Below are positions 11,301 to 25,347 of a DNA stretch of 32,125 bases, piece after piece. The stretch is taken from the IMG/VR virus record IMGVR_UViG_3300037264_009892, positions 1-32,125 of that record; one strand, 5' to 3'. A program made the position numbers and the translations under genes. Within the stretch, counting starts at the first letter, position 1; each line of letters opens with the position of its first letter. The notes beneath the pieces were generated by a model that saw only the letters and a list, made by a program, of their open reading frames with translations, was not told the DNA's origin and did not search any database. This DNA is from a virus.

Positions 11301-11657
11301 GGAGCGAACACCGTCGCGATCCACACCAACGGGTCGGCGCGGCTCACGCTCGCTGACACGACCGCGACTCTGGCCGACGCTGTAAACATCGCCGTCGGCA
11401 CGACTACTGGCACCCAAATCGCCACGGCCTCGACGCAAAAGCTCGGGTTCTGGGGCACGACGGCGGTAGTGCGTTCGGCGGTCGCCGCGCTCACGAACAA
11501 CGTCACGGCGGGCGGGACAACCGATACCATCGACAACTTCACAGACCTGACGACCTACGCGAACGACGCGGCGACGATCAGGAACAACATCTATCAACTC
11601 TCGCGGAAGCTCAAAGAGGCCGTGGATGCACTGCGGCTCTATGGCCTGCTTGGATAG
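8355..11657 (+). CDS. Long tail fibre protein with repeated beta modules
   Basis: A 1100-residue protein from GTG 8355 after GAGGTGA. Residues about 1-60 repeat the N-terminal domain of the collagen-like fibre (SSTPIVVDDGGTAISYSPGQ... RLLSLGQIVLLSG), probably the part that docks on the virion. The body is Thr/Ala/Gly-rich, with three copies of a module containing (T/A)RW.(I/V)S..GH then (Y/L/E)DIGA.ATNR.R..Y.GTSVV(I/V)G, near residues 330, 480 and 910. This module is common in environmental phage fibres. The last 40 residues (TYANDAATIRNNIYQLSRKL onward) are a trimer-type coiled coil. DNA around 10.48-10.74 kb is visibly less GC-rich than its flanks, suggesting module exchange. Confidence 0.8.
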   Translation: MAFIETYQVISSTPIVVDDGGTAISYSPGQTFTAATRNTSVIRLLSLGQIVLLSGPIPAPEPTPPGAASGWTDDGLIVRLTTASDKVAIGAATMIGSEKVRIVGDARIEGKLTVTGLIDPTGLYLDEQVADQPAVANKGVFYTKDVLGITQAFYRASNGAVSQITPSGGGETLAQTLVLGNTTGGTNLAVTNGDAILFGADGRLRRNAASSLEFDDGAGGALTQFTIRATKTTITGALDPTSVSLSSGTALYYESDDGSTAAVAPANKGRIRYLDGTGWQLSSSTGAYSTVATSASGFIQNGNSFGALAVLGTNDAFDLAFETNNVTRWSISTSGHLIPFVDNLYDIGITATNRVRNGYFGTSVVIGATIAIDGSSVQRTSAGTVALFTDAFSTAITIGGGATQTSVTIGGGAAYTGATVGKVGVTDSFLGAVSVGATVTIGSAAVTGSAALSVTATAATLTLAATGTNIIQLTTNAAARWNVTGSGHFVANTDNALDIGASGATRPRTGYFGTSVVVGSTVTIGTAAVTGSGALGLTATGATLALAATGANAITLTTNGTEAYRVKSDSALQFPTNTTSAVSDAATGTLRYNNSASAFQVSISGGAWTSLATGTGGTSLDGAYDFGGAGAGRAITVDSGAVTLTNNAANNNNVLEITKNPAGAQSGDAINVLMGATTTGYGLSVDIATGGSGDGALIKYTDQHTGISMWHNSAAPGLTTLLSRIQTFGGTTGVGGPFQTGLLDVQTSVSSDNAAGSFVFWTNYSSGGSLAQRFCMQHEGTFGLISGASIAWTASATDARPYQSTPTIALAKHNGDNLKVWNYSSTNYLMLGPRVQVAASTGGYWFSPNSDATNSAPDATISRNAANIVQIGTTGNNALGTLMATKIVGPAASALTVDGPTTLDLQTGAVTRWQVSAVGHLLPAATDNTEDIGASATNRIRTLYAGTSVVVGSTVTVSTAAVTGSGALTVTATGAALTLAATGANTVAIHTNGSARLTLADTTATLADAVNIAVGTTTGTQIATASTQKLGFWGTTAVVRSAVAALTNNVTAGGTTDTIDNFTDLTTYANDAATIRNNIYQLSRKLKEAVDALRLYGLLG

Positions 11658-11660
11658 GAG
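11653..11660 (+). repeat. Left target-site duplication of miniature element copy A
   Basis: GATAGGAG here is repeated at 11822-11829 on the other side of the inserted element. The left copy supplies the fibre gene's TAG stop codon; the right copy supplies the AGGAG ribosome site of the next gene. Confidence 0.75.
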
Positions 11661-11821
11661 CAGTTTGCCCTATAACTATTCCGCGATTCTGATATAACCA
11701 GCGCGGAAGTCTCGACCTACAACCACAGATGTGTGAGATACAAACAAACAACAATGCCTGCTGGAAGGCTTTGTATTCCAAGGTCTTATAACCTTTCGCC
11801 TTAGACTTTTAGGGAAAAGCC
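11661..11821 (+). mobile_element. Miniature inverted-repeat element, copy A (161 bp)
   Basis: A 161-bp non-coding element with ends CAGTTTGCCCTATAAC and, inverted, GGCTTTTCCCTAAAAG. It is flanked by 8-bp direct repeats GATAGGAG. It is about 85-90 percent identical by eye to copy B at 24514-24674, which has the same length. Inside are several short palindromes (CCGCG...CGCGG; TCTC...GAGA; ACAATGCC...GGCTTTGT; AAGGT...ACCTT), so it could fold as a compact RNA. No transposase is in the element or the window, so it must have been moved in trans. It sits exactly between the fibre stop codon and the next gene's ribosome site, harming neither. Confidence 0.75.
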
Positions 11822-11829
11822 GATAGGAG
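11822..11829 (+). repeat. Right target-site duplication of miniature element copy A
   Basis: Second copy of GATAGGAG. Together with the following TAATGA it forms the ribosome site of the gene starting at 11836, showing that the insertion duplicated this site rather than destroying it. Confidence 0.75.
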
Positions 11830-11835
11830 TAATGA

Positions 11836-12099
11836 ATGTCCACCTTCAATCTCACGAATTCAGCCGACGTAATCGTCAGCCCTGTCGCCTGGCAGACCCA
11901 GGTGAAAGACCAGAGCGAGGTCGATCACCTGACCGCGCTTCTCGCCACGGCCACGGCGAGACTCGGCACGACCAAGACAAGCGTGCGCGATGTGCTCAGC
12001 CAGGCGATCACCCGAGCAAGTGGAACACTGCCCGGTGGCGAACAGATCACGGACGTCGTGACAAACGAAGATGCGTCGGTCACGATCACGTCCGCATGA
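11836..12099 (+). CDS. Small hypothetical protein downstream of the fibre
   Basis: An 87-residue protein from ATG 11836 with TAGGAG six bases upstream; an ATG at 11832 is in another frame. The sequence MSTFNLTNSADVIVSPVAWQ then DQSEVDHLTALLATATARLG looks like a beta N-terminus and a central helix, and it ends TNEDASVTITSA. It was probably directly joined to the fibre gene (12 nt between stop and start) before element A inserted. A fibre assembly or tail-tip accessory role is inferred from this position; the family is not recognised. Confidence 0.6.
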   Translation: MSTFNLTNSADVIVSPVAWQTQVKDQSEVDHLTALLATATARLGTTKTSVRDVLSQAITRASGTLPGGEQITDVVTNEDASVTITSA

Positions 12100-12371
12100 G
12101 CGCCAAAACTTACCTAAGGCGCTGGGGGCCTATTCAAAGTTGCCAACCACAAGGTAGGGTGTGGTAGGCTGGTGACGCCTGGAGAGTCTCACGAAGAGAG
12201 TGGCCTTTCTTCACCCGTAAGGCAAGCGAAATAGTTATAGGGCAAAGCTATGTGTCGAACTCGCATAGCTTAGGCACAACTAACAGAGCTTCGGTTACTT
12301 AGGTAACTTATGTTCTGTTGGGCAAAGCCAGGCTCGTAATCACAAGACAGCATACGCATCGGAGGTAATAC
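12100..12371 (+). promoter_or_regulatory. Structured 270-nt leader containing miniature-element end sequences
   Basis: No reading frame fits this stretch, but it is full of inverted repeats: AGCGCC...GGCGCT (12101-12124), ACCACA-AGGTAGGG-TGTGGT (about 12147-12166), AGCTATGTG-TCGAACT-CGCATAGCT (about 12247-12271), AACAGA...TCTGTT enclosing GTTAC-TTAG-GTAAC (about 12281-12325). It contains AATAGTTATAGGGCAAAGCT, an exact inverted copy of one end of the 161-bp element, at 12231-12251, and a second GGGCAAAGCC near 12327-12336. It ends in GGAGG just before GTG 12372. It is either the remains of one or more miniature elements or a folded leader of the following gene. Confidence 0.5.
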
Positions 12372-12773
12372 GTGGTCGACACCATTAAGCTAACAAACCG
12401 CGAGGTCCTGGCGTCAACCGGCGCCCTAGCGTCCATAGCCTCGCTCAAGCTTCCTGCCAAGGTGGCTTACGCCATAGCGAAGGTGGTCAATAAGCTTTCG
12501 GGCATCGAAACTACGATCGGCGATGTCCAGAAGAAGCTCTGGGACAGGTATGGCGAGAAGGACGCGGCCGGCAAGCTCGCAGTAAATCGAGAGGCCGGTA
12601 CGATCACGATTCAGCCTGGTCAGGTGGATGCCTTCAACAAGGATTACGCCGATCTCATGGCTGAATCCAACGAGATCAGTGGGCTACGTCAGATCACTAT
12701 TGACGAACTTGGAGACGTCAAGATCGAGCCATCGATCTTCGCTCGTCTTGGGTGGCTCATCAAGGACGAGTAA
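12372..12773 (+). CDS. DUF1617-like phage protein
   Basis: A 133-residue protein from GTG 12372 with GGAGG 7 nt upstream. The pattern IKLTNREVLASTGALASIAS, LKLPAKVAYAIAKVVNKLSG, then KKLWDRYGEKDAAGK and VDAFNKDYADLMAES resembles the small DUF1617-type proteins of tailed phages, whose function is unknown and which often lie near tail or lysis genes. It is mostly helical with a beta C-terminus ending PSIFARLGWLIKDE. It follows the structured leader and ends the fibre operon. Assignment is by remembered pattern only. Confidence 0.55.
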   Translation: MVDTIKLTNREVLASTGALASIASLKLPAKVAYAIAKVVNKLSGIETTIGDVQKKLWDRYGEKDAAGKLAVNREAGTITIQPGQVDAFNKDYADLMAESNEISGLRQITIDELGDVKIEPSIFARLGWLIKDE

Positions 12774-12852
12774 GCACGAACCGGCGTCTTTTGTCACGTA
12801 GGATCGCGGTATGGGTAAGACAAGACAGCTTAGGATCGTGGCCATACTCCCA

Positions 12853-12878
12853 GATGGCTTTGCCCTAAAAGTCTAAGG
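12853..12878 (-). repeat. Solo end of the miniature element inside a gene 3' end
   Basis: Read on the plus strand, GGCTTTGCCCTAAAAGTCTA followed by AGGCG is identical to the inverted right end of element copies A and B. Here it supplies the last codons and the TAG stop of the minus-strand gene ending at 12865. No partner end or target duplication is visible, so it is a relic or solo end. Confidence 0.6.
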
Positions 12879-13242
12879 CGACTTTTGCGAGCGCTACGAG
12901 CGGGTTGATGAGCGCGTAGCGTATGCGACCCTTCTTTGGATCGTACTTTCTGCGGTTCGTATCCTTCTCGATGACAAGACGCGCCATCAATCGCTTGAGA
13001 ATGAGCCTGACCTCATCGTATTCGAGGTGGTATTCCCACGGCTTCCACTTGGACCGCGCCCGGCTACCAGTTCCGTAGTAGGTCGGGTTCATGGTAGCGT
13101 TCAAGCTGCCAGTGATCTGGGCAAGCGTCAAAGCCTTGCCATCCTTGCGGATGAGCTCAGGTATCCGTCGAAGCATCCAGAGCCTTCGCGGTCCCGTCTT
13201 CGTGAAGTCGACCTGGTTGGTTTGCTTGGCTTGCTTACTCAT
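12865..13242 (-). CDS. Putative winged-helix DNA-binding protein
   Basis: A 125-residue basic protein from ATG 13242 (MSKQAKQTNQVDFTKTGPRR). Residues about 25-100 have a winged-helix pattern: LWMLRRIPELIRKDGKALTL, AQITGSLNATMNPTYY, YDEVRLILKRLMARLVIEKD, then RRKYDPKKGRIRYAL as the wing. There is no ribosome site; instead a TATAAC box ends exactly 7 nt before ATG, which suggests a leaderless message. The last codons come from a miniature-element end, and the tail PLVALAKVALDF vaguely resembles the LDxLA tag of other small proteins. A transcription regulator is likely. Confidence 0.6.
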   Translation of the reverse strand: MSKQAKQTNQVDFTKTGPRRLWMLRRIPELIRKDGKALTLAQITGSLNATMNPTYYGTGSRARSKWKPWEYHLEYDEVRLILKRLMARLVIEKDTNRRKYDPKKGRIRYALINPLVALAKVALDF

Positions 13243-13249
13243 GCTGGTT

Positions 13250-13258
13250 GTTATACCC
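13250..13258 (-). promoter_or_regulatory. Leaderless-type promoter box GGGTATAAC before 13242
   Basis: On the minus strand GGGTATAAC is followed by 7 nt (AACCAGC) and then ATG, with no ribosome site. That spacing would put the transcription start at or next to the start codon. The same GGTATAAC word precedes starts at 25347 and 30889, and GGTATAAG precedes 25632. No convincing -35 box is visible. Confidence 0.5.
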
Positions 13259-13281
13259 TGGTGGAGAGTGATGCTTAGCCC

Positions 13282-13310
13282 TTGCAAGGGGCGGCATGTT
13301 GCGGAATAAT
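13282..13310 (+). promoter_or_regulatory. Sigma70-like promoter for the 13335 gene
   Basis: TTGCAA (13282-13287) and AATAAT (13305-13310) are separated by exactly 17 bp, close to the TTGACA/TATAAT consensus, and lie 25 bp upstream of the start at 13335. The -35 box is part of the palindrome CCCTTGCAAGGG, a possible operator. The gene has its own strong terminator, so this is a single-gene unit. Confidence 0.6.
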
Positions 13311-13334
13311 GACTTGGTCTGAGGAGGACACCAC

Positions 13335-13688
13335 ATGGCACGCTTCGTAGTCATGGTCGACGGAACGAGAATCGATAGCATCAGCTACCCGAAGGGCACT
13401 GTGGTCAATGTCCCTTCGTCGAACACCGACGTTCGCCTCGCTGGCCCACTCGGCTCGCCGCCGACGACCACGCCGCTCTACACGGTTCCGCGTCTGCGGA
13501 ACACGTCCGCGATCGGTGCTGGCTTCGTGGCACTGGACACGCTTCCCCCTTACCTCCCGGTTCTCGCTGGCGATCAGCTCGGTCGCCAAACCTCGACCGG
13601 CGCGCTTCCTCCGGGCAGCTCTGGTCCGAACACGGCCAACGTGATGCTGGAGCCGGTTCTCCCCACGGAGAACAGCCAGTACGACTAG
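13335..13688 (+). CDS. Hypothetical, probably well expressed small protein
   Basis: A 117-residue protein with a very strong ribosome site (GAGGAGGA), a good promoter and a strong terminator, so it is an independent unit that is likely highly expressed. The first half is beta-like (ARFVVMVDGTRIDSISYPKG, TVVNVPSSNTDVRLAGPLG) with a faint similarity to the N-terminal domain shared by the two fibres. The second half is Pro/Gly/Thr-rich (GALPPGSSGPNTANVMLEPV) and probably extended. A minor virion or decoration protein is a reasonable guess; the family is not recognised. Confidence 0.6.
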   Translation: MARFVVMVDGTRIDSISYPKGTVVNVPSSNTDVRLAGPLGSPPTTTPLYTVPRLRNTSAIGAGFVALDTLPPYLPVLAGDQLGRQTSTGALPPGSSGPNTANVMLEPVLPTENSQYD

Positions 13689-18071: not shown

Positions 18072-18758
18072 TCAGTCTTTTCGAAGCAGCATTCCTGCAG
18101 AGTGGATGACGTGCTCCCTTGCGCGCTCGCCACAAAGCGCTCCTAGAATGTTGTAGAGATTGAAGATAGTGGCTTCGCCGCTGCGCTTTCGTAGATCGAG
18201 CCGCTCCTGACCTGTGTAGTGGTCGGAGGCGACGCTTTCGGCGAGTGGAAGCATTTCTTTGAGCCGGTTTGCAAGCTCGTTGATGGCTCTGCTCTTCTCG
18301 TCAAGAATCAGGATGTCTTGCCACCTGACCTTGGCCGCCCCGAGCAATGGCCCGAATTCAGCGGCCAGTGCGGCGAAGACTTGCAGATTATCAGGCTTGA
18401 TGTGCCGGTTACCGACCATCATCTGAACAGCGCCGTTAGTGTCCGTGTTCGGACTGGCAAGTTTCGCGGCCACTTGCTCACTGGTCAGGACGTGGAAGGT
18501 TACACACCTAGCCACGGTTAACACATCCGTGTTCGTGGACTTCCAGCCAGTAATCGTAAACCCTACGGCCTCCATGACATGGAAGAGACGCAGAGAACTG
18601 TTTCCGACTGGTAGGTTGGTCTGCTTCACCCACCTACTAATCGCCTGATCATCACAGCCAATCAGCTCCGCCAGACGTCGACGTTGCGGAGTGTCGATGG
18701 CCCGAAGGTAGTCCTGAAGACACTCGTGAAATGTCCCTGTTCTCACCAGGCTACTCAC
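18072..18758 (-). CDS. HTH (XRE-like) DNA-binding protein
   Basis: A 228-residue protein from GTG 18758, overlapping the ATPase gene by 8 nt, with GGGAAG as ribosome site. Residues about 25-65 (QRRRLAELIGCDDQAISRWV, LPVGNSSLRLFHVMEAVGF) look like a lambda-repressor-type helix-turn-helix with its loop. The remaining 160 residues are helical with no recognisable enzyme motif (VFAALAAEFGPLLGAAKVRW). It is the second gene of a two-gene unit with a GHKL ATPase and is followed by a terminator. A regulator that reads a state set by the ATPase is an inference. Confidence 0.6.
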   Translation of the reverse strand: MSSLVRTGTFHECLQDYLRAIDTPQRRRLAELIGCDDQAISRWVKQTNLPVGNSSLRLFHVMEAVGFTITGWKSTNTDVLTVARCVTFHVLTSEQVAAKLASPNTDTNGAVQMMVGNRHIKPDNLQVFAALAAEFGPLLGAAKVRWQDILILDEKSRAINELANRLKEMLPLAESVASDHYTGQERLDLRKRSGEATIFNLYNILGALCGERAREHVIHSAGMLLRKD

Positions 18759-20574
18759 CCTTCCCGTCGGAGGCTTCGTCCTCTTGTTTACGCAGCCTGT
18801 TGTAAAACTGCCCGCGCTTGGTGAGCTTGTCGGCGTGCGTAATCAACGGAATCACATCCTGGATGCCCTGCTTGATCACGTCTTCGCGGTGGATGTAGCC
18901 ACCTGGATCGTCTTCGGCGAAATCGATCCAGGCCTCGTGCATGCGCAGCGCGCCGATGATGAGCCTCTCTTGAAGATCCATGAGGCATTTCTCACGGGCC
19001 GTCTCGTTTTGGTGCGCGCTCTCTACACCCGACCAGAGGTAGTGGTAGATGTTGATAGTGAGGATGCCTTTCTTCGGATCGAGGTCCCACATCCACGTCC
19101 CGTCGATGCGGCCAAAGGCGACGGCGAGGCCGAGGCTGTTATCCCTCACCAACTTTCGCGGATTCCCAGCCTTCGAGACGACGACGGTCGGTGAGTGCGC
19201 GGGTTTCTCCCTTTCAGGAGGCGTGCGCTTACTGCAGCTCTCGTCTTTCTTCTCAGGCCTCTTGTCGGTGAGGCCCGGTGTCCCATCGGTCGATGTGGCT
19301 GTGAGTTGCTCACCGGTCTCACGACCCGCATTGACATCGAAGTGACCAACGCCTGTGGAGCCGACCTTAAAGCGCCTCATCAGCTTTCCTAGATCGCTGT
19401 CCTTCTTGTAGAGGTGGTTGAGCAGCTTGAGCGAGCGCTTGCCAAGACGCTCGTAGCGCTCGTCCTTGGACTCATCCTCGATCTTGGCAATGTAGGGTTG
19501 CCCGATCTCGTTGATCCACTTCTGAATGCGCTCGCAAGCGTCGAGGAGCGCAACACTCTGGACCATGTTAAGCCGCGATGGATCCATCTGGACCTTCTGA
19601 TCGTCGAAGTTGATGATGCCTTCGAAGATGCCAGAGGTGAGCTTAGCCAGGGCGCTCTTCTCGATCGGGTCCTTAATCCCGCCGAAAACCTTGGCCGCCG
19701 TCTTCTCAGTCAGCAGTTGCCCTGAGTTGTTTCCGCACTTAACTCGAATGACGCCCTTGTAGGCTGGAACACGGCCCACAACCTTCGGCTTGGCGAGGTA
19801 AAGGCGGAGTTCGGTGCGGCCAGAAAGCTCACTCTCGTAGATCTTCACAGGAAGCGGCGAACCTGTGTAGTCGAGCGCCTCAATCTGCTTGGTGAGTTCA
19901 GAACCGTCGGCCTCAGTGATCTTGATGATCACCTTGGTCTTGTTGGGCTTCATGTGCTCGTTGTAGCGAGTTAGAATCCCGTCGCAGATCATGTCGAGGT
20001 CGAGGTTTGCACGGATTTTGTCGGTCTCGTACTTCTCGATCCTCAGCCTAGACCGCCACCACGGCTTCTCAGGGAGCCGAATCTCTTGCGTCGGAGCCTC
20101 CAGGTCGTTTTCGGCGGCCTTGAGTGCCGCTGTATCGAACGTCCATTCCAGCATCCCGTTCGAGCCATCGCGCGGCTCCGAAGCGAACAAGAAGCGTACA
20201 CACTTATCGAAGGAGGCGACGACACCAAGGCCGTATCTGCCAAGCTTGCCGAAGCGCTTCATGGAGTCTCCGACGCAGGAGAGGCACTCCTTGAAGTAAT
20301 CGTAGCTAGCTCCATCTCCATCATCGTGGATGTGGATACTGCGGACTTTCGGATCTTTGTTGATGGAGACAGTGATCTTCTTGGAGTTGGCGTCGATCGC
20401 GTTTTGAACCGCCTCGAAGATGGCCTCGTCGAGGTGCTGGTAGGTCTTGGCAAGGTAGCCCAAGACGTTCGCCTTGTGGAAGTCGATCTTGGTAGGCGGG
20501 TACTTAACCAGCTTGGTGGTGACGGGCGTCACCGCCTTCTGGGCGTTATCTCTGTTGCTTGCTGCGTGTGCCAT
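18751..20574 (-). CDS. GHKL ATPase (Hsp90/MORC-like)
   Basis: A 607-residue protein from ATG 20574 (MAHAASNRD), chosen because GAGAGG is upstream; a longer frame reaches 20622. All GHKL (Bergerat) motifs are present within residues about 45-120: N box EAIFEAVQNAIDA, G1 box IHIHDDGDGAS, and G2-like RFGKLGRYGLGVVASF. Middle beta-rich regions (about 200-330) resemble the transducer domain of MORC or Hsp90-like proteins. A low-complexity linker (about 400-450) precedes a C-terminal helical domain (LWSGVESAHQNETAREKCLM). It should bind and hydrolyse ATP as a clamp. The partner gene is the HTH protein downstream. Defence, anti-defence or chaperone roles are all open. Confidence 0.8.
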   Translation of the reverse strand: MAHAASNRDNAQKAVTPVTTKLVKYPPTKIDFHKANVLGYLAKTYQHLDEAIFEAVQNAIDANSKKITVSINKDPKVRSIHIHDDGDGASYDYFKECLSCVGDSMKRFGKLGRYGLGVVASFDKCVRFLFASEPRDGSNGMLEWTFDTAALKAAENDLEAPTQEIRLPEKPWWRSRLRIEKYETDKIRANLDLDMICDGILTRYNEHMKPNKTKVIIKITEADGSELTKQIEALDYTGSPLPVKIYESELSGRTELRLYLAKPKVVGRVPAYKGVIRVKCGNNSGQLLTEKTAAKVFGGIKDPIEKSALAKLTSGIFEGIINFDDQKVQMDPSRLNMVQSVALLDACERIQKWINEIGQPYIAKIEDESKDERYERLGKRSLKLLNHLYKKDSDLGKLMRRFKVGSTGVGHFDVNAGRETGEQLTATSTDGTPGLTDKRPEKKDESCSKRTPPEREKPAHSPTVVVSKAGNPRKLVRDNSLGLAVAFGRIDGTWMWDLDPKKGILTINIYHYLWSGVESAHQNETAREKCLMDLQERLIIGALRMHEAWIDFAEDDPGGYIHREDVIKQGIQDVIPLITHADKLTKRGQFYNRLRKQEDEASDGKGE

Positions 20575-20646
20575 GCTGTCCTCTCCGGTCTGGTGACCGC
20601 GATATTGACCTAGACTCGACATACCCGACTGTTGACGACTCCTGCG

Positions 20647-23365: not shown

Positions 23366-24046
23366 TTAGACCTCAAAGACCTGGATCGGATTAACCGGCT
23401 GATACCGTTCGTTGCACAATGATACGTTCACAAAAGTCGTTTCACCAAGTTTTTCTAAACCATAACTTTGATGTATGTGACCAAAGATGTGGAGCTTGGG
23501 CTTAATCTGTAGCACGCGATCTCGTAGGATTGGGCAACCGACTCGTCGCTCCTGCGGAGCCAGGTCGAGGATGTTGAGCGGCGGTCCGTGTGTGATGAGC
23601 ACGTTCACGTCGTCCGGAATCTTGGCCCAGACCCTCTTGGCCTCCTCGAAGCCGCTCACAGGATCAAGGCGGTTGAAATTGAAGGCCCAGTCCCAGAACC
23701 AGGGTTGCCAGGGTGACCCATAGAACTTCACACCGTCAATCTCACAGGCTGAGTCTTCAAGATAGACAGCCTCGATCGCGTGCTTCGCGGTCTTATGAAC
23801 TTCCGAGCAGTAGTGGAGCCAGTCGTGGTTCCCTGCGACGACAATTATCTTTTTGTAGCTCAACGACTTGAGGAATCGATTGAACGGGCCTTTGACCCAC
23901 TCAAGCTGCCTTCGGGCATCAGCTACCTCGCCGCCACCGCCAGGAAAGTTGGGCGCGTAGTCTCCGGCAATCACCAGCACATCACCATCTGGCATCTGCG
24001 CTTCGTTGAGCATCCCGTGGCAATCAGAAACCGCGACGACTCTCAA
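23366..24046 (-). CDS. Calcineurin-like metallophosphoesterase
   Basis: A 226-residue protein from TTG 24046 (AGGTAG upstream). All family motifs are present: VSDCHG (DxH), VIAGDYAPN (GD), VVAGNHDWL (GNHD), LITHGPP (H) and IFGHIHQSYG (GHxH). Length and spacing fit the small single-domain enzymes that hydrolyse phosphodiesters or phosphomonoesters with two metals. Phages carry related enzymes that act on 2',3'-cyclic phosphates or nucleotides; the substrate cannot be read from sequence. It follows the interrupted zinc-finger gene by 4 nt and may be co-expressed with it. Confidence 0.85.
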   Translation of the reverse strand: MRVVAVSDCHGMLNEAQMPDGDVLVIAGDYAPNFPGGGGEVADARRQLEWVKGPFNRFLKSLSYKKIIVVAGNHDWLHYCSEVHKTAKHAIEAVYLEDSACEIDGVKFYGSPWQPWFWDWAFNFNRLDPVSGFEEAKRVWAKIPDDVNVLITHGPPLNILDLAPQERRVGCPILRDRVLQIKPKLHIFGHIHQSYGLEKLGETTFVNVSLCNERYQPVNPIQVFEV

Positions 24047-24050
24047 TTAA

Positions 24051-24449
24051 CTACCTGCCCCTCTTCCGTGTCGACTCTACTGTGAACCTGGGGTGACATT
24101 TTGGGCAATCTTCAGAATCCCCTTTGTCCACGGTGATGCGTTGCCGACCACCGCATCGGCTGCACGGTTTCTTGGCCTTCTTGGGTTTAGCGGCCTTGAT
24201 GCCAAGACAGCCGCTGTCCTTGTTGCGGATCGGTTGAATGGGCCTCTTCTTGGCTTCCTTGAGGATCCATTCGACCTCACGTCGCTCGCGCTCAATCTCG
24301 AAGCGCTTGTAGTCCTCGAACTTGCAGGTCACCTTGCACGGGACGAGCTTGTCGTAGGTCTTGCTCTTCAAAGAACCAGACCACCAGCAAGCCTCGAACA
24401 CGGCCTCCCACGGCGAGAGCTTGACGACCTTGGCCTTCGCCAACAGCAT
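24051..24449 (-). CDS. C-terminal fragment of the interrupted gene (possible internal start)
   Basis: From an internal ATG at 24449, 132 residues remain open to the TAG at 24051. They contain a charged helix (RFEIERERREVEWILKEAKK) and CSRCGGRQRITVDKGDSEDC with PKCHP, two CxxC pairs of a zinc finger. There is no ribosome site at this ATG, and coding-quality sequence continues upstream of it to the element boundary, so this is probably not the native start. Confidence 0.45.
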   Translation of the reverse strand: MLLAKAKVVKLSPWEAVFEACWWSGSLKSKTYDKLVPCKVTCKFEDYKRFEIERERREVEWILKEAKKRPIQPIRNKDSGCLGIKAAKPKKAKKPCSRCGGRQRITVDKGDSEDCPKCHPRFTVESTRKRGR

Positions 24450-24504
24450 GTGGCCGCGACCATCGTTCCACTCAAGAGTCAGCGACGCCGACCCATCGTC
24501 CTTG

Positions 24505-24513
24505 TAGCTGACG
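24505..24513 (-). repeat. Target-site duplication of element B (left)
   Basis: TAGCTGACG on the plus strand, repeated at 24675-24683 across the element. On the coding strand it gives the V-S-Y codons of the interrupted protein. Confidence 0.75.
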
Positions 24514-24674
24514 AGCTTTGCCCTATAACTATTCCGAGATCCGGGTATAACCAGTGTGGAAGTCTCAACCTACAACCACAGACGCGTGAGATTCTAACAA
24601 CCAACAATGCCTGCTGGAAGGCTTTGTATTCCAGGGTCTTATGACCTTTTGCCTTAGACTTTTAGGGCAAAGCC
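24514..24674 (+). mobile_element. Miniature inverted-repeat element, copy B (161 bp)
   Basis: Same length and orientation label as copy A, with ends AGCTTTGCCCTATAACT and, inverted, GGCTTTGCCCTAAAAGT: terminal inverted repeats of about 14 bp. The interior, including CAATGCCTGCTGGAAGGCTT, is nearly identical to copy A. Differences between copies cluster in the first 90 bp. Flanked by 9-bp direct repeats TAGCTGACG. It encodes nothing and carries a stop codon into the host gene. It is consistent with a non-autonomous DNA transposon moved by a transposase encoded elsewhere. Confidence 0.75.
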
Positions 24675-24683
24675 TAGCTGACG
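24675..24683 (-). repeat. Target-site duplication of element B (right)
   Basis: Second TAGCTGACG. The TAG stop of the truncated N-terminal peptide arises at the junction of this repeat with the element. Confidence 0.75.
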
Positions 24684-24795
24684 TAGGCATCGCGAAGCTC
24701 TTCGTGGGTCTTGTCCTTGCCATGATCCATTGGAACCGGCTGCTCGTAGTCGATCGAAACGAGCGCCCAGGTAAGCGTGCTGATAATCACGTAGA

Positions 24796-25347
24796 TCACT
24801 CTTTCTTGGAGAGTTCTACCCGCGAATCAGGAATCTCAGCCAGGGCGTCAAGCGGCGAGGCCTTCTCAAGCCCGAAGATGTCGACATGATGGTGGCGGCC
24901 CGTCTTGGCGTCCTCGACAACGGCGTAATGCTTCGGGTTCTTGAAGCTATCCTTCTTGACGACTTCCTTGACGGTGCCGATGACGAACCGATCATCGATC
25001 TTGACGGTCGTCCGAACCGTGTCGTCAACGCAGACCGGATCCTCTTCGGAACCGTAGCGCAGCTTGCCGTAGCGAGGATTGTAGAAGTTGATTCCGCCGG
25101 CCGGGTTGGACATCGGCTGAACAGAGACGATGTTGCTCGCGAACGACGGTGCTGTCTTGAGAACCAGCGGAAACGCGAACTTCATAAACGGCCCGACCTC
25201 GACTTCTTTCGTTGTCGAGGTCATGGCGCCGATAATCTTCTGAAGCTGAGAGGACCCGACTGGTGGAGCCCCATTCAAGAAGGGGGCCCACTTGGCGGCG
25301 GCCTTAGCGACAGGATCAGCCAATGGGTCATTCGCCGGGCTGGTCAT
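24796..25347 (-). CDS. Tagged SH3-like protein with capsid-like N-terminal segment
   Basis: A 183-residue protein from ATG 25347, preceded by TATAAC and 7 nt with no ribosome site. Residues about 33-98 (VGPFMKFAFPLVLKTAPSFA then SNIVSVQPMSNPAGGINFY) resemble the N-terminal region of T4-like major capsid proteins, where '...P.LIA..I..VQPM..P.G.IF' is a signature. Residues about 110-160 form an SH3/KOW-like barrel (DRFVIGTVKEVV, HYAVVEDAKTGRHHHVDIFG). The end has SPLDALAEI, the shared tag, plus a charged extension. The fusion is unusual: a captured capsid piece in a small accessory protein. Confidence 0.6.
   Translation of the reverse strand: MTSPANDPLADPVAKAAAKWAPFLNGAPPVGSSQLQKIIGAMTSTTKEVEVGPFMKFAFPLVLKTAPSFASNIVSVQPMSNPAGGINFYNPRYGKLRYGSEEDPVCVDDTVRTTVKIDDRFVIGTVKEVVKKDSFKNPKHYAVVEDAKTGRHHHVDIFGLEKASPLDALAEIPDSRVELSKKE

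Follow-up and report, generated by a model that had tools for sequence, protein, structure and literature searches.

What is the 161-bp insert that splits a small gene of this phage, how did it get there, and could the protein still be made across it? The window, i.e. the whole stretch of DNA that was analysed, is a 32,125-bp IMG/VR virus record with tailed-phage-like gene content, including a tail fibre and a head-tail adaptor. Its closest named relative, judged from a single gene (the 23366-24046 phosphoesterase, 43% identity), is Tunturiibacter phage Tunturi_5, a phage of an acidobacterium, and most of the other window proteins tested were without match. The 32-kb record is probably a fragment of a genome. 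Elsewhere in the window (18751-20622), a 623-aa protein carries a HATPase_c_3 (GHKL ATPase) domain (E 3.8e-15), and its only other match is to a PHROG of unknown function.

The insert, referred to here as element copy B, lies between two short direct repeats:

24514..24674, plus strand: element copy B, 161 bp, non-coding, 46.6% G+C against 57% for the window
24505..24513, no strand: left target duplication of copy B, TAGCTGACG
24675..24683, no strand: right target duplication of copy B, TAGCTGACG

The earlier note had placed TAGCTGACG on both sides of 24514-24674, and this was confirmed. The two 9-bp direct repeats are perfect, directly abut the element and are the only two occurrences of this sequence in the window. 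Identity over 9 bp directly flanking segments of 140-180 bp has a background rate of 3.8e-6. The termini of copy B are perfect 11-bp terminal inverted repeats (GCTTTGCCCTA/TAGGGCAAAGC), which match at 13 of 14 positions when extended. Among all segments of 80-400 bp in the window, copy B was the sole one that combined 9-bp flanking direct repeats with inverted terminal 12-mers matching at 9 or more of the 12 positions. Codon-usage scores of the element were negative in all six frames.

The gene around copy B belongs to a run of genes on the minus strand:

24051..24799, minus strand: interrupted gene, 192 aa once the element and one repeat are removed; GTG at 24799, stop at 24051-24053; ORFan
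24796..25347, minus strand: upstream gene, whose stop (TGA) shares bases with the start (GTG) of the interrupted gene in a 4-bp overlap, GTGA
23366..24046, minus strand: downstream metallophosphoesterase gene, starting 4 bp past the stop of the interrupted gene; 43% identical to its Tunturi_5 counterpart
24051..24449, minus strand: longest ATG-initiated frame left of the broken gene, 132 aa, covering its C-terminal part

With the insert in place, the reading frame runs into a TAG exactly at the junction, and the 170 bp made up by copy B and one repeat are not a multiple of three. Removing these 170 bp in silico yielded a single open frame (...HEELRDAYVS-YKDDGSASLTLEW...). Restoration of the frame, as claimed before, therefore stands, but the 189 residues given for it count from a GTG at 24790; the GTG at 24799, which gives 192 aa, is probably the better start. 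The GTGA overlap upstream and the 4-bp gap downstream match the spacing that a genuine gene of an operon would show. The protein has a C-terminal CxxC...CxxC pattern, which the earlier note had read as a zinc finger. Pfam gave no match to the protein, this region included, so that the pattern is all that is left of that reading.

To score coding potential, we used codon-usage log-odds trained on eleven large frames from the phage. The interrupted gene scored 0.45 bits/codon before the insertion site and 0.15 bits/codon after it, compared with 0.13-0.39 bits/codon for the training genes and negative values in the other two forward frames. The coding-like score on both sides suggests that both sides once coded in the same frame. 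The two halves could instead be separate genes, with the element an ordinary intergenic repeat between them. Such an arrangement would fit the 132-aa ATG-started frame downstream (24449-24051), and no homologues were at hand that would exclude separate halves. However, the 18 codons between the insertion and this internal ATG look just as much like coding sequence as the remainder of the gene (0.46 bits/codon), which argues that the downstream part did not begin there. The joined frame also fits the operon exactly and the duplication falls within the frame, and we therefore regard two separate genes as highly improbable. Homologues of the reconstructed protein were found neither in phages, IMG/VR, Tunturi_5 or a 735-kb phage, nor beside related phosphoesterase genes. 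As no relative with an empty site was found in the collections searched, we infer the insertion from one sequence. The duplications, the inverted ends, the coding statistics on both sides and the operon spacing together give good support to the proposal that the element disrupts a once-continuous gene.

The element is not confined to this gene. A second full-length copy and two isolated ends were found in the window:

11662..11821, plus strand: element copy A, 160 bp, 90% identical to copy B, between two genes
11653..11660, no strand: left target duplication of copy A, GATAGGAG, 8 bp (8/9 if read as 9 bp)
11822..11829, no strand: right target duplication of copy A, GATAGGAG, source of the GGAG that precedes the ATG at 11836
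12227..12249, minus strand: solo left end, 22/23 identical to copy B
12856..12881, minus strand: solo right end, with 24 terminal bases identical to copy B

The duplication at copy A suggests that the stagger may be 8-9 bp. An alignment of copies A and B shows 16 differences over 158 sites plus a 1-base gap, and both ends of copy A are mutated (GCTTT to G-TTT, and GGGCAAAGCC to GGGAAAAGCC). This 10% divergence, together with the damaged ends of A, suggests that A and B do not stem from one recent burst; by these differences, B appears to be the younger insertion of the two. The element had also been described as recent, and this holds for the insertion of B, given its perfect repeat and the intact flanking frame, but not for the A/B pair.

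Between the two solo ends lie 606 bp (12250-12855) with an ORF at 12372-12773 (phrog_1401, unknown function). Along the minus strand, the right end comes first, then the gene and then the left end, an arrangement that might be left by two elements, one on each side of the gene, after loss of their interiors. A minus-strand ORF at 12865-13341 ends inside the solo right end, which provides its last codons and stop. At 12318-12329, near the solo left end, an extra GGGCAAAGCC follows a hairpin (AACAGA...TCTGTT) and is possibly an element end or a chance occurrence.

With two copies in hand, we could weigh the ways in which the gene might survive its insert. One is removal at the RNA level, with an intron-like or otherwise spliced insert and a protein that is still made, as had been suggested earlier. 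The flanking frame is intact and would be restored by the loss of 170 nt, and the inverted ends would pair as a 12-bp stem that brings the junctions together. Known group I or II introns are longer than 161 nt, which makes the element too short to be one of them, and neither an Rfam family match nor a notable fold of the gene strand (z -1.07) was found. Folding of B's opposite strand is somewhat more stable than that of its shuffles (z -2.78), as the inverted ends could give. The changes between A and B fit a shared fold worse than random ones, with 186 of 200 null draws folding at least as well. Introns do not normally make target duplications, and splicing of the intergenic copy A would serve nothing. 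Removal of the insert from the RNA is thus unsupported and, in our view, extremely unlikely.

Ribosomes might also bypass the insert, as they do in T4 gene 60, with take-off at an AGC followed by UAG and a landing site that repeats GUC AGC. The junction does have this layout (GUC AGC UAG ... GUC AGC UAC), which is, however, an automatic by-product of the target duplication. The bypass gap of T4 gene 60 is 50 nt, and a gap of 170 nt is far longer. Copy A is again intergenic, no conserved structure was seen, and a bypass at this junction appears vanishingly improbable. The element might, finally, be excised precisely in part of the population, giving a mixture of broken and intact alleles. The perfect duplication and the intact flanks are in keeping with this, as is the existence of transposases that cut their substrates out. 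Precise excision that also takes one repeat is rare for IS-type elements, though, and we think it very unlikely here.

The element shows features by which MITEs are recognised: it is short and non-coding, has terminal inverted repeats and target duplications, and occurs in more than one copy at unrelated sites. Copy B is thus very probably a MITE, i.e. a short, non-coding, non-autonomous DNA transposon, that was moved in trans into the gene and inactivated it. A transposase acting in trans, encoded either by the host or by phage DNA outside the 32-kb record, would have recognised the GGCTTTGCCCTAWAA ends. Staggered cuts 9 bp apart within the gene (24051-24799) would have opened the target for insertion of the element, after which repair of the gaps would have produced the TAGCTGACG duplication. 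The frame shift and the stop at the junction would then have inactivated the gene, leaving at most an N-terminal peptide of 38-41 residues and perhaps a re-initiated C-terminal fragment. Both the movement in trans and the loss of function are what we infer from the arrangement of the locus.

We also looked for the ends of the element in other genomes. Genomes of Chloroflexota, Acidobacteriota and Thermoplasmatota also contain the ends RGCTTTGCCCTAWAA, as inverted pairs with target duplications of 8-9 bp and without a transposase between them. A scan of 85,000 species genomes with the 18-mer GGCTTTGCCCTAAAAGTC returned 13 loci, compared with a chance expectation of about 7 by our own estimate from collection size; single matches were hence not counted, and a locus was accepted only if it had an inverted partner end as well as a target duplication. 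One match rejected in this way (L012) lies inside a pheT-like gene, and single matches of this kind prove nothing. One Chloroflexota genome (G010) contains a many-copy family of about 112 bp (loci L020, L036, L047, L104 and L108) with distinct 9-bp duplications (CCCCTCCAA, CCCCCTCTC, GGGTACTTA and CGACCAGAT), and its end pattern occurred at 17 sites, versus none for the reversed control pattern. A second Chloroflexota genome has a 1710-bp element with the duplication CCTATTCAG. In Acidobacteriota, elements of 432 bp (CCTCCGTGG) and 371 bp (8-bp GATATTTT) were found, and in Thermoplasmatota elements of 917 bp (AGTTTGATT) and 1124 bp (TCAAAATGT). The paired inverted ends and target duplications in these genomes indicate that the ends belong to real transposon families. 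Matching ends with duplications of 8-9 bp in unrelated genomes, along with the duplications at copies A and B and their inverted ends, give good support to the view of the earlier note that the element is mobile.

None of the related elements in Chloroflexota, Acidobacteriota and Thermoplasmatota contained a recognisable transposase. Passenger genes are present in some of them; the 1124-bp archaeal element, for example, carries a UbiA-family gene. At four loci in Thermoplasmatota MAGs (L011:2455-3371, L038:1501-2818, L113:1973-3096 and L048:815-1515), single genes lie between inverted GGCTTTGCCCTAAAA or GGCTTTGCACAATAA ends. They encode membrane or signal-peptide proteins and two different UbiA-family prenyltransferases. 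Repeated TTTGACCTAAAAGTC motifs are often found inside these elements, and perfect 9-bp target duplications flank those at L011 and L113. The four loci look like passenger-gene elements without a transposase. On two archaeal contigs (L026:1423-1461 and L038:1477-1515), two outward-facing ends flank CCCTTTATC at a distance of about 9 bp from each other, as if two elements abut at one target. The 1710-bp Chloroflexota element with the CCTATTCAG duplication (L022:110-1819, also L115) contains two small adjacent genes that resemble a toxin-antitoxin pair and a gene for a 221-aa protein, and none of the three had a Pfam match.

Searches with the element DNA gave no real match in phages and plasmids, scans of IMG/VR for the element ends gave zero matches, and a genome scan for the end pair at similar length likewise gave zero. 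Literature matches for the end sequence were unrelated ones only. The phage element and the related elements may form an unnamed, widespread guild with GGCTTTGCCCTAAAAGTC ends and 8-9 bp duplications that spans Thermoplasmatota (with single passenger genes, e.g. UbiA-like prenyltransferases), Chloroflexota, Acidobacteriota and phages, is served by one transposase family and uses phages as the vehicle between hosts. We consider this conceivable but doubtful.

Neither the window nor any related locus yielded a transposase gene with such ends. Genes with a DDE_Tnp_1 domain (PF01609) are present in most of the related genomes, and none of them carries these ends. PF13737, PF01610, PF12762 and PF03400 had no match in the related genomes, and PF00872 matched one gene. 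No autonomous element was found among 396 genomes of the phylum of one related genome (G011) or 197 genomes of the class of the Chloroflexota genome with the many-copy family. A clue to the partner comes from the ends and the duplication. In IS903B, the ends are GGCTTTGTTGAATAAATC and the repeat is 9 bp long (PMC10569121), and all IS903-group elements in one survey had 9-bp duplications (PMC3281130). The GGCTTTG ends and 9-bp duplication of the phage element match IS903B as well as ISAba12/MITEAba12 (ends as printed in PMC10569121 and PMC6382973). Past GGCTTTG, the end of the phage element reads CCCTAAAA, versus TTGAATAAA in IS903. Judged by this comparison, the transposase may be of the IS5/IS903 type, for and against which the signs seem to us evenly balanced. 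Since the end bases past the first seven are different and a transposase flanked by such ends was not found, the IS5/IS903 link is a lead and not a membership.

MITEAba12 of Acinetobacter, which is ascribed to ISAba12, is 113 bp long and has GGCTTTGTTGCACAAA ends and 9-bp duplications (PMC6382973). It resembles the phage element in its length class (113 vs 161 bp), its lack of coding sequence, its GGCTTTG ends, its 9-bp duplication and the disruption of a gene, while its end continues as TTGCACAAA instead of CCCTAAAA. Unlike the phage element, it resides in a bacterial chromosome with a known co-resident IS, and its insertion was observed in real time (PMC6382973). The many-copy Chloroflexota MITEs of about 112 bp share inverted GGCTTTGCCCTAAAA ends, 9-bp duplications and the lack of a transposase with the phage element, but are chromosomal and have a different internal sequence. 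The IS903 group (IS5 family) has the same first seven end bases, GGCTTTG, and a 9-bp duplication (PMC10569121, PMC3281130), but its members are autonomous insertion sequences of about 1050 bp with a transposase, and the rest of the end differs. MPME1 and MPME2 of mycobacteriophages are likewise ultra-small, found in phage genomes and disruptive to phage genes (PMC3029335). By its description (PMC3029335), MPME1, of 439 bp and with an unexplained addition of 6 bp at one end, is set apart from the phage element, with its 161 bp and 9-bp duplication.

A limited literature search found no reports of MITEs in phage genomes, and the mycobacteriophage MPME elements were the nearest. The phage element is a new MITE family in a phage, and its mechanism is ordinary. 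Its two copies, their target duplications and the demonstrable knock-out of a gene make it a clean phage case, which adds to the record of phages that acquire mobile DNA from their hosts. Its ends, common to several phyla, point to one partner transposase that can be sought.
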